Assembly: GCF_014648275.1 (NCBI RefSeq)
Contig: NZ_BMQU01000017.1
Coordinates: 60,808 to 124,807 of the forward strand
Reading direction: 5' to 3'
DNA length: 64,000 bases
DNA from: Pseudomonas laurentiana
GTDB taxonomy: Bacteria > Pseudomonadota > Gammaproteobacteria > Pseudomonadales > Pseudomonadaceae
Position numbers and translations under genes: made by a program. The notes below the pieces were generated by a model, which saw only the letters and a program-made list of their open reading frames with translations, was not told the origin of the DNA and searched no databases. This document shows, piece after piece, positions 8,455 through 61,261 of this stretch (positions are counted from its first letter, which is position 1; each line of letters starts with the position of its first letter).

Positions 8455-8481
8455 CAGATCGCTGGAATAGCTGGAATAAGA

Positions 8482-8503
8482 AAACCCCGCCGAAGCGGGG
8501 TTT
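8482..8503. terminator. Terminator after the LysR gene
   Basis: AAACCCCGC and GCGGGGTTT form a perfect 9-bp stem closed by CGAA. A-rich and T-rich flanks are present on both strands, so it can work in both directions. Confidence 0.85.
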
Positions 8504-8650
8504 GCAGACTGTTTCCCTGACATCCATTTCACCCGCCATCCTGGCAGGAATCCTGCGTGTCCCTGTTCTGTACATTGCGCATCCTGCGCGACGTCCATGT
8601 GGCAAAGATTAGCAATGGATCCAATCTTTAGATAGAGGCTAAAAGTCACC

Positions 8651-46826: not shown

Positions 46827-49520
46827 ATGAAAAGCCAACCCGATGCCGCCAGCCGTATGGTGGCCGAGGTAGTGACGCAATTGCCCGTGCCTTCGCGGCT
46901 CGGGATGCTGCGTTTCGAGCGGCTGAATGAAGCCAGTTGGGCCATGCTGTTTCTCGATCCAGGCTGCGAACGCCAATTCGGCATACCCGCTGTCGACCTC
47001 TGCGCGCTGATCGGCTCCCCTTACGCGAGCCTGATGGAGCCTGAGGCGCGCTACAAACTGCATGACACGATTGAGCTGCAGCTGAGCCAGCGCAGCCATT
47101 ACCTGGTGCGCTACACGCTGCATACAAGCGAAGGGCCACTGCACCTGCTGGAAGTCGGCGAGGCTTACAAACAGCACAATCGCCAGCTGCTGCGCGGGTA
47201 TCTGCTGGTGATCGACGGGCAGCCGGGCGATAGCCCTGAGCTTTCGGCCAACGAACTGGAAAACCGTAACAACCGCTTGCAGATCGCCCTGCAACTCAAC
47301 CAGCAAGCGCAGCAGGAACAACTTGAGCACCTCGAGCGGGTACGTGCCCAGCAAGACCTGATCCTGCGCCTGGCCCGTCAGCGCTACAGCGCAGACAACT
47401 CGCTGCAGGAAGCTGCCGAACTGATTACCCGCAGCGCCTGCGAGATCTACAAGGTCGACTGTGCAAGTATCTGGAACCTGGAAGACCAACGCCTGGTACC
47501 CATCTCGGCCTACTACCGCGAAACCCAGGAATACCGCTTGCCCGAGGCGCTCGAAATCAGCCGGTTTCCCAACTACCTTGAGGCCCTGCACACCAGCCGC
47601 GCCATCGACGCCCACAACGCCAACCACGACCCGCGCACACGCGAACTGGTTGATCACCTGCGTCAGCGCAACATCAGCGCCATGCTCGATGCCAGTATCC
47701 GCATCGATGGCCAGGTAGTCGGTGTGCTGTGCCTGGAGCACGGCGGCTCGACACGCACCTGGCAGTCGGATGAGCTGGCGTTTGCCGGTGAGCTGGCCGA
47801 CCAGTTTGCTCAGGTCATCAACAACCACAACCGCCGTACCGCCACCAGCGCACTGCACCTGTTCCAACGCGCCGTGGAGCAAAGCGCCAACGCCTTCCTG
47901 CTGGTCAACCGCGATGGCGTGGTCGAATACGTAAACCCCAGTTTCACGGCGATCACCCAGTACAGCGCCGAAGAGGTTCATGGCCACCGGCTGTCAGAGC
48001 TGCCGGCCCTGGAAAACCTCAACGACCTGCTCTTCGATGCGCCCTCCAGCCTGGCCATGAACAACAGCTGGCAAGGCGAGTTCAAGAGCCGACGCAAGAA
48101 CCTCGAACCGTACTGGGGGCAGTTGTCGATTTCCAAGGTCTATGGCGATAACCGCGAACTGACCCACTACATCGGCATCTACGAAGACATCACCCAGAGC
48201 AAGCTGGCACAACAGCGCATTGAACGCCTGGCCTACACCGACAACCTGACCACCCTGGGCAACCGCCCTTCGTTCATCCGCAACCTCGACGAACGCTTTA
48301 CCAGCGACAGCGACCGCAAGATCAGCCTGTTGCTGGTGGACATCGACAACTTCAAGCGGATCAACGACAGCCTCGGCCATCAGACGGGTGACAAACTGCT
48401 GATCAGCCTGGCCCGGCGCCTGCGCAACAGCCTGAGCCCCGGTGGCAGCCTGGCGCGGTTTGCCAGTAACGAATTTGCCGTACTGCTCGACGATACCGAC
48501 ATGGAGGGTGGCCAGCAGGTTGCCCAACAGTTGCTCAAGACCCTCGACAAGCCACTCTTTGTCGATAACCAGCTGATCAACGTCACCGCGTCGGTCGGCC
48601 TGGCCTGCGCACCGCTGCACGGGCGTGATCCACAAACCCTGATGAAGAACGCCGGGCTTGCGTTGCACAAGGCCAAGGCCAATGGCAAGCACCAGGTCCA
48701 GGTCTTCACCGAAGCGCTCAACGCCGAAGCCAGTTACAAACTGTTCGTCGAAAACAACCTGCGTCGTGCGCTGACCCAAAACGAACTGGAAGTGTTCTAT
48801 CAGCCTAAACTCTGCCTGCGCAGCGGTCGCCTGCTGGGCATGGAGGCGCTGCTGCGCTGGAACCACCCGGAAAAGGGCATGATCCGCCCAGACCAGTTCA
48901 TCAGTGTCGCCGAAGAAACCGGCCTGATCATTCCAATCGGCAAGTGGATCGCGCGTCAGGCCTGCCGCATGAGCCAGGAACTCGCAAGTGAAGGCCTCGG
49001 CAACCTGCAGGTGGCAATCAACCTGTCACCCAAGCAGTTCTCCGACCCGGACCTGGTTGCCTCGATAGCCAAGATCCTCAAGGAAGAAGCCCTGCCGCCA
49101 CATCTGCTGGAACTGGAGCTGACCGAGGGCCTGTTGCTCGAAGCCACTGAAGACACTCACCGTCAGCTCGACGAGCTCAAGCAGTTGGGCCTGACCCTGG
49201 CCATGGACGACTTCGGTACCGGCTACTCGTCCCTGAGCTACCTGAAGAAGTTTCCGATCGACATCATCAAGATCGACCGCAGCTTCATCAACGAAATTCC
49301 CGACAACCAGGACGACATGGAAATCACGTCGGCGGTGGTCGCCATGGCTCACAACCTCAAGCTCAAGGTGGTTGCCGAGGGCATCGAGACCGCTGCGCAA
49401 CTGGCATTCCTGCGCAGGCACCGTTGCGATGTCGGCCAAGGCTACCTGTTCGACCGGCCAATCTCCGGTCACGAGTTGGTGGACAAGCTCAAGCGCTATC
49501 CGCGTGGCCCAATCGCCTGA
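46827..49520 (+). CDS. GAF-PAS-GGDEF-EAL protein, probable c-di-GMP phosphodiesterase
   Basis: The 897-residue protein has an N-terminal PAS-like segment, a short coiled coil, a GAF domain (about 180-335), a PAS domain (about 345-460), GGDEF (about 465-625) and EAL (about 635-890). The GGDEF motif is degenerate (FASNEF), so cyclase activity is unlikely. The EAL domain is intact: MEALLRWNHPEKG, LELTEGLLLEATED and DDFGTGYSSLSYLKKFP. It therefore probably hydrolyses cyclic di-GMP, with the GGDEF domain perhaps sensing GTP. No membrane segments are seen. Confidence 0.92.
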   Translation: MKSQPDAASRMVAEVVTQLPVPSRLGMLRFERLNEASWAMLFLDPGCERQFGIPAVDLCALIGSPYASLMEPEARYKLHDTIELQLSQRSHYLVRYTLHTSEGPLHLLEVGEAYKQHNRQLLRGYLLVIDGQPGDSPELSANELENRNNRLQIALQLNQQAQQEQLEHLERVRAQQDLILRLARQRYSADNSLQEAAELITRSACEIYKVDCASIWNLEDQRLVPISAYYRETQEYRLPEALEISRFPNYLEALHTSRAIDAHNANHDPRTRELVDHLRQRNISAMLDASIRIDGQVVGVLCLEHGGSTRTWQSDELAFAGELADQFAQVINNHNRRTATSALHLFQRAVEQSANAFLLVNRDGVVEYVNPSFTAITQYSAEEVHGHRLSELPALENLNDLLFDAPSSLAMNNSWQGEFKSRRKNLEPYWGQLSISKVYGDNRELTHYIGIYEDITQSKLAQQRIERLAYTDNLTTLGNRPSFIRNLDERFTSDSDRKISLLLVDIDNFKRINDSLGHQTGDKLLISLARRLRNSLSPGGSLARFASNEFAVLLDDTDMEGGQQVAQQLLKTLDKPLFVDNQLINVTASVGLACAPLHGRDPQTLMKNAGLALHKAKANGKHQVQVFTEALNAEASYKLFVENNLRRALTQNELEVFYQPKLCLRSGRLLGMEALLRWNHPEKGMIRPDQFISVAEETGLIIPIGKWIARQACRMSQELASEGLGNLQVAINLSPKQFSDPDLVASIAKILKEEALPPHLLELELTEGLLLEATEDTHRQLDELKQLGLTLAMDDFGTGYSSLSYLKKFPIDIIKIDRSFINEIPDNQDDMEITSAVVAMAHNLKLKVVAEGIETAAQLAFLRRHRCDVGQGYLFDRPISGHELVDKLKRYPRGPIA

Positions 49521-59539: not shown

Positions 59540-59636
59540 CGAATGACCTCTTGAGCCTTAACGGCGGGAAACGGTCATTTGACTGACCGGCCACAGGATT
59601 GTTCCGTACTGATTGACCGCCAGTGGTCGGGTGTTC

Positions 59637-59951
59637 TCAGCCTGAGCGTTCGCTTATGGCGCGCGCCTCGATCCCGTCGAGCAAGGCATCGACCAGGCCC
59701 TTGGCCATCTCAACCGAATGCATCGTGGACCAGAGAAAGCCCTTGGCCGAATCGTCGGCGGTTTCGCTGGCCTGATGGGCAGTGTCGTAGGCACCACGCA
59801 GGAACAGAGAGACATGCACCAGCGCGTCATGGGGTTCGATACCGGGGCGTACGAGGAACATCGGGTCGTGGCCGGCACCGCAGAGGCCGAAAAGTGTATT
59901 GGCGGTTGGGGCAAGGGTTTCGTGGGGTGGATCTGGAACGATTTTCTTCAT
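59637..59951 (-). CDS. DUF3077/DUF6124 family small protein
   Basis: A 104-residue cytoplasmic protein with the pattern of the pseudomonad DUF3077/DUF6124 family: an N-terminal PDPPHETL, then helix-forming sequence (DALVHVSLFLRGAYDTAHQASE and VEMAKGLVDALLDGIEARA). The function is unknown; pseudomonads often carry several copies. GGGAG stands six bases before the ATG and is part of a conserved structured leader (59952-60081). A truncated copy of its start lies at 60274-60345. Confidence 0.85.
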   Translation of the reverse strand: MKKIVPDPPHETLAPTANTLFGLCGAGHDPMFLVRPGIEPHDALVHVSLFLRGAYDTAHQASETADDSAKGFLWSTMHSVEMAKGLVDALLDGIEARAISERSG

Positions 59952-60081
59952 GGAAAGCTCCCATTACGGTTGAGCTGGACACATCCCGTTTCCACACGAA
60001 GAGGTGGCAGCTGTACGCGGGGTGGAAAACCAGGGTAATGGGTAACCCGGCAGACCCGAAGGTCTCCCACGTACAGCCGCC
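59952..60081 (-). promoter_or_regulatory. Structured mRNA leader of the DUF3077 gene, copy 1
   Basis: On the sense (minus) strand GGCGGCUGUACGUGGG (60081-60066) pairs with CCCGCGUACAGCUGCC (60021-60006), a 16-bp helix with two G-U pairs that would be mismatches on the other strand. It encloses hairpin A, AGACC-UUCG-GGUCU (60065-60052), a stable C(UUCG)G tetraloop, and hairpin B, CCGGG/CCCUGG with loop UUACCCAUUA (60050-60030). Loop segment CCCAUUAC (60042-60035) is exactly complementary to GUAAUGGG (59967-59960), which contains the Shine-Dalgarno GGGAG. The pairing could hide the ribosome-binding site. I recognise no named RNA family. Confidence 0.75.
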
Positions 60082-60203
60082 ATAACGACAGCCACCACAT
60101 TACCGGTCCGGGTTTCCACGCCCGTTCGCCGAATTGTCAGCGACACAAGCAGCGTAGGTGGGCAACATTTCCAAGACAAGCCAATGGGTGCCGACAGCGT
60201 TCG

Positions 60204-60217
60204 TAGGATATTTCCTA
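60204..60217. promoter_or_regulatory. Conserved palindrome upstream of leader 1
   Basis: TAGGA-TATT-TCCTA, extended by GTTC(G) and GAAC on the flanks, is preserved in both copies. It lies about 125 bp before the leader helix, where an upstream activator or operator would be expected. A weak TTGTCT-17-TACGCT promoter candidate follows on the minus strand. Confidence 0.5.
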
Positions 60218-60273
60218 GAACAGGTGATCTGCCAGCAATTTCAATTTCATGCCCTCAGGCACTATCGCAGCGC

Positions 60274-60345
60274 TCATGCAGTACCTGAGGAAGCAGGCAT
60301 GCCTGCGATGGTTTCGTGGGGTGGATCTGGAACGACGTTCTTCAT
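60274..60345 (-). pseudogene. Truncated DUF3077 gene start
   Basis: From the ATG at 60345 the frame reads MKNVVPDPPHET, matching the first 12 residues of the intact gene (MKKIVPDPPHET). It then runs into REP sequence and stops at 60274 after 23 codons. The break falls exactly where the REP begins (ATCGCAGGCATGCCTGC). Confidence 0.8.
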
Positions 60346-60477
60346 GGAAAGCTCCTGATGCAGGTGTGGCTGCAACCTTCCGTTTCTACACGAAGAGGTG
60401 GCAGCTGTACGCGGGGTGGAAAACCGGATGCATCAGGTAACCCCGGCAGACCCGAAGGCCTCCCACGTACAGCCGCC
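60346..60477 (-). promoter_or_regulatory. Structured mRNA leader, copy 2
   Basis: The same architecture as copy 1. The 16-bp helix is identical (60477-60462 with 60415-60400). Hairpin A is AGGCC-UUCG-GGUCU, an A-U to G-U change that keeps the pair. Hairpin B has CCGG/CCGG. Its loop segment UGCAUCAGG-complement pairs here too: CCUGAUGC (60437-60430) is exactly complementary to GCAUCAGG (60361-60354), next to the Shine-Dalgarno AGGAG. Four of eight bases differ from copy 1 on each strand, all compensated. It precedes only a truncated reading frame. Confidence 0.72.
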
Positions 60478-60599
60478 ATAACTAAAGCCACCACATTACC
60501 AGTCCGGGTTTCCACGCCCGTTCGCCGAATTGTCAGCGACACGGGCAGCGTAGGTAGGCAACATTTCCAAGACAAGCCAATGGGTGCTGACAGCGTTCG

Positions 60600-60613
60600 T
60601 AGGATGTTTCCTA
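60600..60613. promoter_or_regulatory. Conserved palindrome upstream of leader 2
   Basis: TAGGA-TGTT-TCCTA, the equivalent of the site at 60204-60217. The arms are unchanged while the spacer and outer flank have mutated. Confidence 0.5.
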
Positions 60614-60657
60614 AAACGGGTTATCTGTCAGCAATTTCAATTTAATGCCCTCAGGCA

Positions 60658-60684
60658 CTATCGCAGGCAAGCCTGCTCCCACAG
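60658..60684. repeat. REP unit downstream of the transposase gene
   Basis: ATCGCAGGCAAGCCTGCTCC followed by CACAGG is the standard pseudomonad REP of this subfamily. It abuts duplication copy 2 on one side and lies 33 bp beyond the transposase stop on the other. Confidence 0.8.
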
Positions 60685-60716
60685 GAAAAGCAGTGTTCTC
60701 TGTAAGCCCAAGGTAT

Positions 60717-61172
60717 TCAGAGCCAGACGGCATCCCAATGAGGGTAGTCGCCAATTTTTTGAACCAGCCCGGCGCGCAGTGGGTTGGCGACGATATAGCG
60801 AGCAATGGCCCGGATATCCTCTTCGCGCCGCAATGCCCGGTCATGGAAGCCCACTTGCCATAGCCGCCCCGAACGTAGGCAAGCCCTGTTTATTGCACAG
60901 GTGCTTCGCGACTTGAGCTGTCGCATTACACTGCTCAACGTTGCCTGTTGCAGTTCCATCAGCCAATGGAAGTGATCGGGCATTACCACCCAGGCAAGTG
61001 ATCGCGCAGTGCTTTCCTGTTGTGCGTGGCGGAACTCCGCGACCAACAGTCGAGCAAGCCTCCAGTCTGTGAGGATAGGTGTTCGATGCTCTGTGACGCT
61101 GGTCAACAGATACAGCCTGCCAGGTTCGGAAACCCTACCACGGCGAAGGCGATGGGAGCTTGGACGGTCCAT
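60717..61172 (-). CDS. REP-associated tyrosine transposase (RAYT)
   Basis: The 151-residue protein is an IS200-like Y1 transposase of the RAYT type. The HUH motif is MPDHFHWLME (about 63-72). The catalytic-tyrosine helix is DIRAIARYIVANPLRAGLV (Tyr about 125), which is the RAYT C-terminal signature. RAYTs process REP hairpins and appear as single domesticated genes. AAGGAG six bases before ATG 61172 fixes the start, rejecting the ATG seven codons earlier. REP units flank the gene on both sides. Confidence 0.93.
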   Translation of the reverse strand: MDRPSSHRLRRGRVSEPGRLYLLTSVTEHRTPILTDWRLARLLVAEFRHAQQESTARSLAWVVMPDHFHWLMELQQATLSSVMRQLKSRSTCAINRACLRSGRLWQVGFHDRALRREEDIRAIARYIVANPLRAGLVQKIGDYPHWDAVWL

Positions 61173-61261
61173 GTCTATCTCCTTGGAAGTCATGACTCAA
61201 GGTAGATGGCAGAGGATTTACGGGGAGGGCATCAATGGCACTGGATGTTTCTGGACAAAGG

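Follow-up and report, generated by a model that had tools for sequence, protein, structure and literature searches.

Tandem C4 antisense RNA leaders precede a DUF3077 gene in Pseudomonas laurentiana

Results

Two C4 RNAs lie upstream of a DUF3077 gene

The window, that is, the whole 64,000-nucleotide stretch of Pseudomonas laurentiana DNA analysed here, contains on its minus strand a gene encoding a 104-aa DUF3077 protein (59637..59951; PF11275, 26.4 bits against a cut-off of 21) and a truncated 23-codon ORF (MKNVVPDPPHETIAGMPASSGTA, 60274..60345), each preceded by its own leader. A gene for a Y1_Tnp (IS200-like) transposase (60717-61193, minus strand) is located directly upstream of this tandem pair, and a scan of 59560-60760 detected no promoter- or terminator-like site. 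We scanned the whole window against Rfam 15 at gathering threshold and obtained three RNAs, two of which are the DUF3077 leaders; the window also holds the RsmY regulatory RNA (8481-8598, minus strand; RF00195, 114.3 bits). Both leaders (copy 1, 60000..60087; copy 2, 60394..60483; minus strand) match the C4 antisense RNA family RF01695 over its full length (1-87), with 76.1 and 74.6 bits, respectively, against a gathering score of 45, and are members of the family by its covariance model. C4 was the sole match at the locus at gathering threshold among 4,227 Rfam families, and no riboswitch was matched. The pairings that characterise the family are present as well, with b' complementary to b2 at the ribosome-binding site in both copies and a' to a2 just after C4.

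Both leaders are C4 antisense RNAs, a known family in a new setting. The first-pass annotation had read the loop complementarity as a cis-acting switch of no described RNA family, and had itself named a match to a known family as a result that would count against it. The pairing is real and the claim of a helix holds, whereas the claim of a new RNA class falls: an unknown family is ruled out by the RF01695 matches of both leaders, and a ligand-opened riboswitch finds neither a riboswitch family match nor other supporting evidence.

Each hairpin-B loop is complementary to its own Shine-Dalgarno segment

In the terms used for P1, the helix between the loop of hairpin B and the Shine-Dalgarno segment corresponds to b'/b2, and a' is the junction that connects hairpin B to the closing stem; in copy 1 it pairs with a2 (GUGGAAA). 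We confirmed the proposed complements by reading the minus strand and aligning the two copies. In copy 1, b' (CCCATTAC, 60035..60042) faces b2 (GTAATGGG, 59960..59967), which overlaps the Shine-Dalgarno, so that loop CCCAUUAC and segment GUAAUGGG form an exact 8-bp complement. The corresponding elements of copy 2, b' (CCTGATGCA, 60429..60437) and b2 (TGCATCAGG, 60354..60362, likewise overlapping the Shine-Dalgarno), provide an exact 9-bp complement of loop CCUGAUGCA and segment UGCAUCAGG. Between the copies, four of the eight paired positions are changed on each side and all four changes are compensated, as the first-pass annotation had stated. The calculated duplex energies agree with this: the copy 1 loop gives -14.6 kcal/mol with its own Shine-Dalgarno segment versus -5.0 with that of copy 2, and the copy 2 loop -18.8 kcal/mol versus -8.1 with that of copy 1, so that each loop prefers its own target over the other by ~10 kcal/mol.

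The description of the two copies as otherwise highly similar is accurate for four segments, namely the region upstream (13/174 columns differing), the 5' portion of C4 (1/36), the stretch after the loop (2/30) and the start of the ORF (2/42); it does not extend to the loop itself (8/18) or to the leader segment between C4 and the Shine-Dalgarno (15/47), both of which have diverged strongly. As judged from these column counts, the differences between the copies are concentrated at the pairing sites.

The earlier set of pairings captured b'/b2 and missed both the a'/a2 helix and the upstream copies a1 and b1. In copy 1, a' (TTTCCAC, 60022..60028) is the exact 7-nt complement of a2 (GTGGAAA, 59989..59995), whereas in copy 2 a' (TTTCCAC, 60416..60422) faces a2 with one mismatch (GTAGAAA, 60383..60389), leaving six of seven pairs and a weaker a-duplex (-5.2 versus -8.7 kcal/mol in copy 1). 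On the 5' side of C4, as in P1, copy 1 carries both a1 (GTGGAAA, 60113..60119), an exact complement of a', and b1 (GGTAATG, 60098..60104), a 7-nt complement to its loop region. Copy 2 has this upstream element in part: its a1 (GTGGAAA, 60509..60515) is complementary to a', and the sequence at its b1 position (GGTAATG, 60494..60500) retains the copy 1 code and misfits the copy 2 loop.

The leaders share the architecture of the P1 C4 system

The P1 record annotates a1, b1, c4 (48343-48419), a2 (48423-48429), b2 (48452-48459) and the start of icd (48470), and the same order, a1-b1-C4-a2-b2-ORF, is found in the leaders described here. Counted from the CACC end of C4, a2, b2 and the ATG begin at +8, +36 and +52 in copy 1 and at +4, +33 and +51 in P1, a spacing that is similar but not identical. 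The P1/P7 C4 RNAs and the leaders further have in common a three-stem fold with a UUCG tetraloop, a' and b' placed in the junction and the loop, a2 and b2 ahead of the following ORF, b2 lying at its ribosome-binding site, and a1 and b1 upstream. All 43 C4 sequences compared, P1 among them, carry ATGG near the 5' end and CACC at the 3' end.

The systems differ in what lies downstream and in their number. C4 in the P1 immI region (c4-icd-ant) targets icd/ant; the P1-type succession of icd and then the antirepressor gene ant is absent here, the target being a DUF3077 gene. P1 Icd matches NF033153, and the target protein of the window had no NCBIfam match at E 0.1. Unlike the P1/P7 system, up to 42 C4 matches occur in a Pseudomonas genome.

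Pairing codes differ between loci and remain matched

We collected relatives with a single pattern, MxK[IV]VPDPP, which yielded at least 592 matching stretches, 265 of them encoding relatives, and kept the best 80 loci, several of which come from the same genomes; by record name, 77 are Pseudomonas, two Paucimonas and one Pantoea. Among 68 scanned proteins, a set that took in 57 of the best 80, cut to 90 residues, 61 matched Pfam DUF3077 at E 0.001. C4 was located in these loci with a covariance model built from the 43 C4 sequences (25 of the 26 copies of the P. laurentiana genome, 17 of 30 copies from elsewhere in the genus, and that of P1), none of which belongs to the 80 test loci. In all of the best 80 of at least 265 relatives, a same-strand C4 ends 40-51 nt upstream of the start codon. 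Since the search was tied to a single N-terminal motif, the result speaks for one type of DUF3077 gene and not for all.

Among the same best 80 of at least 265 relatives, a' and a2 match exactly over at least 7 nt in 77 loci, with a mean match of 7.05 within a locus versus 4.28 between loci, and the longest b'/b2 match averages 7.40 within a locus versus 4.10 between loci; neither observed mean was reached in any of 10,000 permutations, which do not correct for the relatedness of the loci. For other DUF3077 leaders, which the first-pass annotation had proposed as a check on its pairing, the b'/b2 complementarity reaches at least 6 nt in 70 of these best 80 of at least 265 relatives and only 3-5 nt in the other ten, and 66 different b' loops are present among them. 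When the best-pairing window was taken for each leader in the 77 loci with a full junction match, all 539 of 539 cells were Watson-Crick pairs, and all seven a'/a2 positions were changed on both sides. The upstream elements follow the same pattern in the best 80 of at least 265 relatives, with an a1 match of at least 7 nt in 74 and a mean b1 match of 6.63 within a locus versus 4.72 between loci. Taken together, the strong covariation supports a long-range helix that would cover the Shine-Dalgarno, as originally suggested.

In many of the loci L027-L056 and L107-L186, a terminator-like stretch (GGCGCTTTTTTT) lies between b1 and C4, with b1 abutting a GGCGC arm, and in many of them a1 is found inside a CGGG-loop-CCCG hairpin. 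Judging by this layout, the stretch and the a1 hairpin could form an attenuator that is read by C4 itself.

C4 modules of the P. laurentiana genome are largely insulated from each other

This genome contains 26 C4 matches above the gathering score, several of them in tandem, and 14 DUF3077 genes, of which 12 have a C4 upstream; the two without are L057 and L059. L057 (G000:C8:229323-229544) is the best DUF3077 match of the genome, with 82.2 bits, and has no C4 nearby. We judged 16 C4 copies to have their leader in place, including copy 2, with its truncated gene, and L012, in which the ATG is lost. For 14 of the 16, the own leader gave the best combined a+b duplex energy; the cognate leaders of L001 and L012, which have one code in common, each ranked second of the 16. 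The observed mean was reached in 0 of 20,000 permutations. Cognate a+b energies range from -21.1 to -30.3, and the best non-cognate value is -25.9. These calculations suggest that the modules are largely, not fully, insulated from each other. L012 (G000:C16:32093-32179) keeps the L001 pairing code intact, has CGG at the site of the start codon, and its frame stops early.

C4 and DUF3077 are widespread in the genus

Counting that of the window, 32 of 36 Pseudomonas genomes carry C4, with 1-42 matches each and 588 matches in total at E 0.001 over the 36 genomes. Under stricter filters, with at most ten matches taken per genome, it was found in 368 of 399 genomes of the genus; class-wide, under stricter filters, the count was 18 of 274 genomes including the window's own, i.e., 17 of 273 others. 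Within the genus, DUF3077 was found for 76 of 99 genomes; class-wide it occurs in one of 248, which is the window's own. Searches of 50,697 phage records and 72,556 plasmid records at E 1e-3 gave no match to the window protein, and its profile recovered six weak relatives in viral contigs, whereas C4-like DNA is present in 26 phage records, of which 25 bear the name of a Pseudomonas phage. On account of this absence of the protein from phage and plasmid records, the C4-DUF3077 pair looks chromosomal.

The nearest precedent is the set of C4-like RNAs of Acinetobacter baumannii, where, in the available part of the report, 21 chromosomal C4-like sRNAs (Group 1) are described in one genome, the a' loop is the variable part, and RNA-seq coverage suggests processing at a GGW site (PMC5320573). 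That system resembles the present one in having many chromosomal C4 copies per genome; it differs in that its targets are not identified in that part of the report, whereas here the matching target lies directly downstream of the gene-bearing copies. The c4 and c4-a1b1 motifs have also been catalogued, the latter for gammaproteobacteria and phages (Weinberg et al. 2010, PMC2864571); judged by its name, c4-a1b1 is the upstream a1/b1 element, and the available part of its entry carries no link to DUF3077. A search of the open-access literature recognised no paper that links C4 with DUF3077. The later C4 literature cites Citron and Schuster (1990) and Hartmann (1995).

Copy 2 resembles a tandem duplicate, and a palindrome precedes both copies

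Copy 2 is probably a tandem duplicate whose b code differs from that of copy 1 and in which only 23 codons of a target frame are left. As read by eye, the repeat unit ends at codon 12 of DUF3077 and is followed by REP-like sequence, near the Y1_Tnp transposase gene; the REP-like palindromes mark the duplication junction of the tandem pair. L200, a related locus from a different genome of the genus, has one C4 with a third matching code (loop TTTTCCAATGCC, b2 GCATTGGA) and adjoins a gene that reads by eye like a Y1_Tnp transposase. Should L200 be orthologous, the two sides of the code have changed together between relatives.

A perfect palindrome lies on the minus strand upstream of copy 1 (TAGGAAATATCCTA, 60204..60217) and of copy 2 (TAGGAAACATCCTA, 60600..60613). 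Seven of the 12 perfect sites in the genome are upstream of a C4, and a reversed control pattern has four sites. A looser TAGG..CCTA pattern, allowed up to 450 nt upstream, precedes 8 of this genome's 26 copies, 23 of 80 named loci and 0 of 30 C4 copies from other genomes of the genus, versus 3.4% of shuffles. A common operator for all modules was dropped, since the palindrome is present in a subset only, for which it remains a candidate operator; the P1 record places a C1 operator at the c4 promoter, which offers a parallel.

Target protein and gene arrangement

In the AlphaFold2 model of the window protein (pLDDT 88.9), a pair of short strands precedes two long helices. Foldseek returned no match at E<=0.001 for this model in the PDB (473 at E<=10) or among viral models (936 at E<=10), and a PDB sequence search gave one match, with E 0.5. 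Because of this lack of significant structure and sequence matches, we assign no function to the DUF3077 protein.

Some of the C4 loci in the genus have a two-ORF arrangement, in which the end of an initial small-peptide ORF is overlapped by another ORF of at least 70 aa. Among 21 picked loci, the overlap is exactly 4 nt in 13 (first ORF 28-54 aa), 8 or 20 nt in four, and absent in four; icd and ant1 of P1 overlap by 4 nt as well (48691/48688). The loci with the 4-nt overlap include L002, L009 and some of L028-L056, like icd-ant in P1. The second gene is DUF3077 beside L002 and L009, and that beside L052 reads like DUF3077 by eye. The overlaps and the P1 parallel suggest translational coupling as in P1, and in the window's gene a leader peptide of this kind (MKKIVPDPP) may have become fused to DUF3077.

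Discussion

We consider it probable (roughly 0.87) that each leader is a P1-type C4 module, carried on the chromosome, matched to its own downstream small gene and repressing DUF3077. It is most likely, by analogy with P1, that a C4 RNA cut from the common transcript represses translation of DUF3077 without any ligand. The leader and the DUF3077 gene would be co-transcribed, the transcript running through C4 into the gene, and RNase P would then free a C4 of ~77 nt with its 5' end at the invariant GG. In the freed RNA, the junction a' would pair with a2 and the loop b' with b2; such pairing should cover the Shine-Dalgarno, block ribosome entry and stop DUF3077 translation, with C4 presumably acting in trans. 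Because their a'/b' codes differ, the modules would be largely insulated from one another, as P1 and P7 are. Several observations weigh against this P1-type reading: the b'/b2 match is short (3-5 nt) in ten of the best 80 of at least 265 relatives, two of the 14 DUF3077 genes of the genome have no C4, insulation is incomplete, the icd/ant target of P1 is missing, the scan of 59560-60760 gave neither a promoter- nor a terminator-like site, and copy 2 lacks a complete gene, one of its a2 pairs and a b1 that fits its loop.

The same pairings could be made within an uncut leader, with a' and b' binding a2 and b2 as a pseudoknot that is opened by a factor or ligand, which is close to the switch that the first-pass annotation had envisaged. 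Pairing in cis is feasible, since C4 and its target lie on one strand with a C4-to-start gap of 40-51 nt in all of the best 80 of at least 265 relatives and C4 copies mostly fit their own leader. Against a purely cis-acting device, RF01695 is curated as an antisense family, the 5' ATGG and 3' CACC are retained throughout the 43 sequences, and the available text on P1/P7 describes C4 as an antisense RNA that is processed by RNase P and acts on target leaders (PMC5320573, PMC8198154); opening by a ligand is unsupported. We therefore regard a switch confined to cis as unlikely. It is rather improbable, and not favoured here, that copies without an intact gene, copy 2 for example, serve as trans regulators of other modules in a C4 network. 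Five of the ten remaining C4 copies, those judged to be without a gene start, do reach cognate-range energy with the leader of another module among the 16, and copy 2 retains a perfect 9-bp b'/b2 despite its truncated gene; yet copy 2 binds its own leader best among the 16, and several of the ten have decayed leaders, as judged by eye, and resemble remnants of tandem duplication.

Decay bears also on the notion that the similarity stems from old, decaying prophage immunity regions that no longer serve a function. In its favour, C4 is a phage family with relatives in the phage records noted above, and some copies are indeed remnants, such as L012 with its lost start codon and others without a gene. 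However, the pairing codes vary between loci and yet stay complementary, which needs selection, and the protein that is absent from the phage and plasmid records belongs to a family that 76 of 99 Pseudomonas genomes encode. The maintained pairing thus disfavours neutrality of the gene-bearing set, and we hold prophage decay to be very improbable.

Beyond the P1-type module at single loci, we tentatively propose that Pseudomonas chromosomes harbour domesticated and greatly amplified P1-type C4 modules, each with a two-part code, which as largely insulated pairs may diversify in the manner of phage immunity specificity and control small proteins restricted, as seen here, to the genus, possibly in host regulation, phage sensing or defence. 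The findings extend one phage antisense RNA known from textbooks to a genus-wide family with hundreds of copies and many natural antisense/target pairs, and the C4 set offers ready data on how RNA-RNA specificity diverges while staying matched. DUF3077, a family with no assigned function, gains a testable candidate regulator, and C4 copies elsewhere, for example in Acinetobacter, merit a look for a target directly downstream. In a furfural-tolerant evolved P. putida, according to the available part of the report, a one-base insertion reportedly turns the DUF3077 pseudogene PP_RS01475 into a normal gene (PMC9630843).
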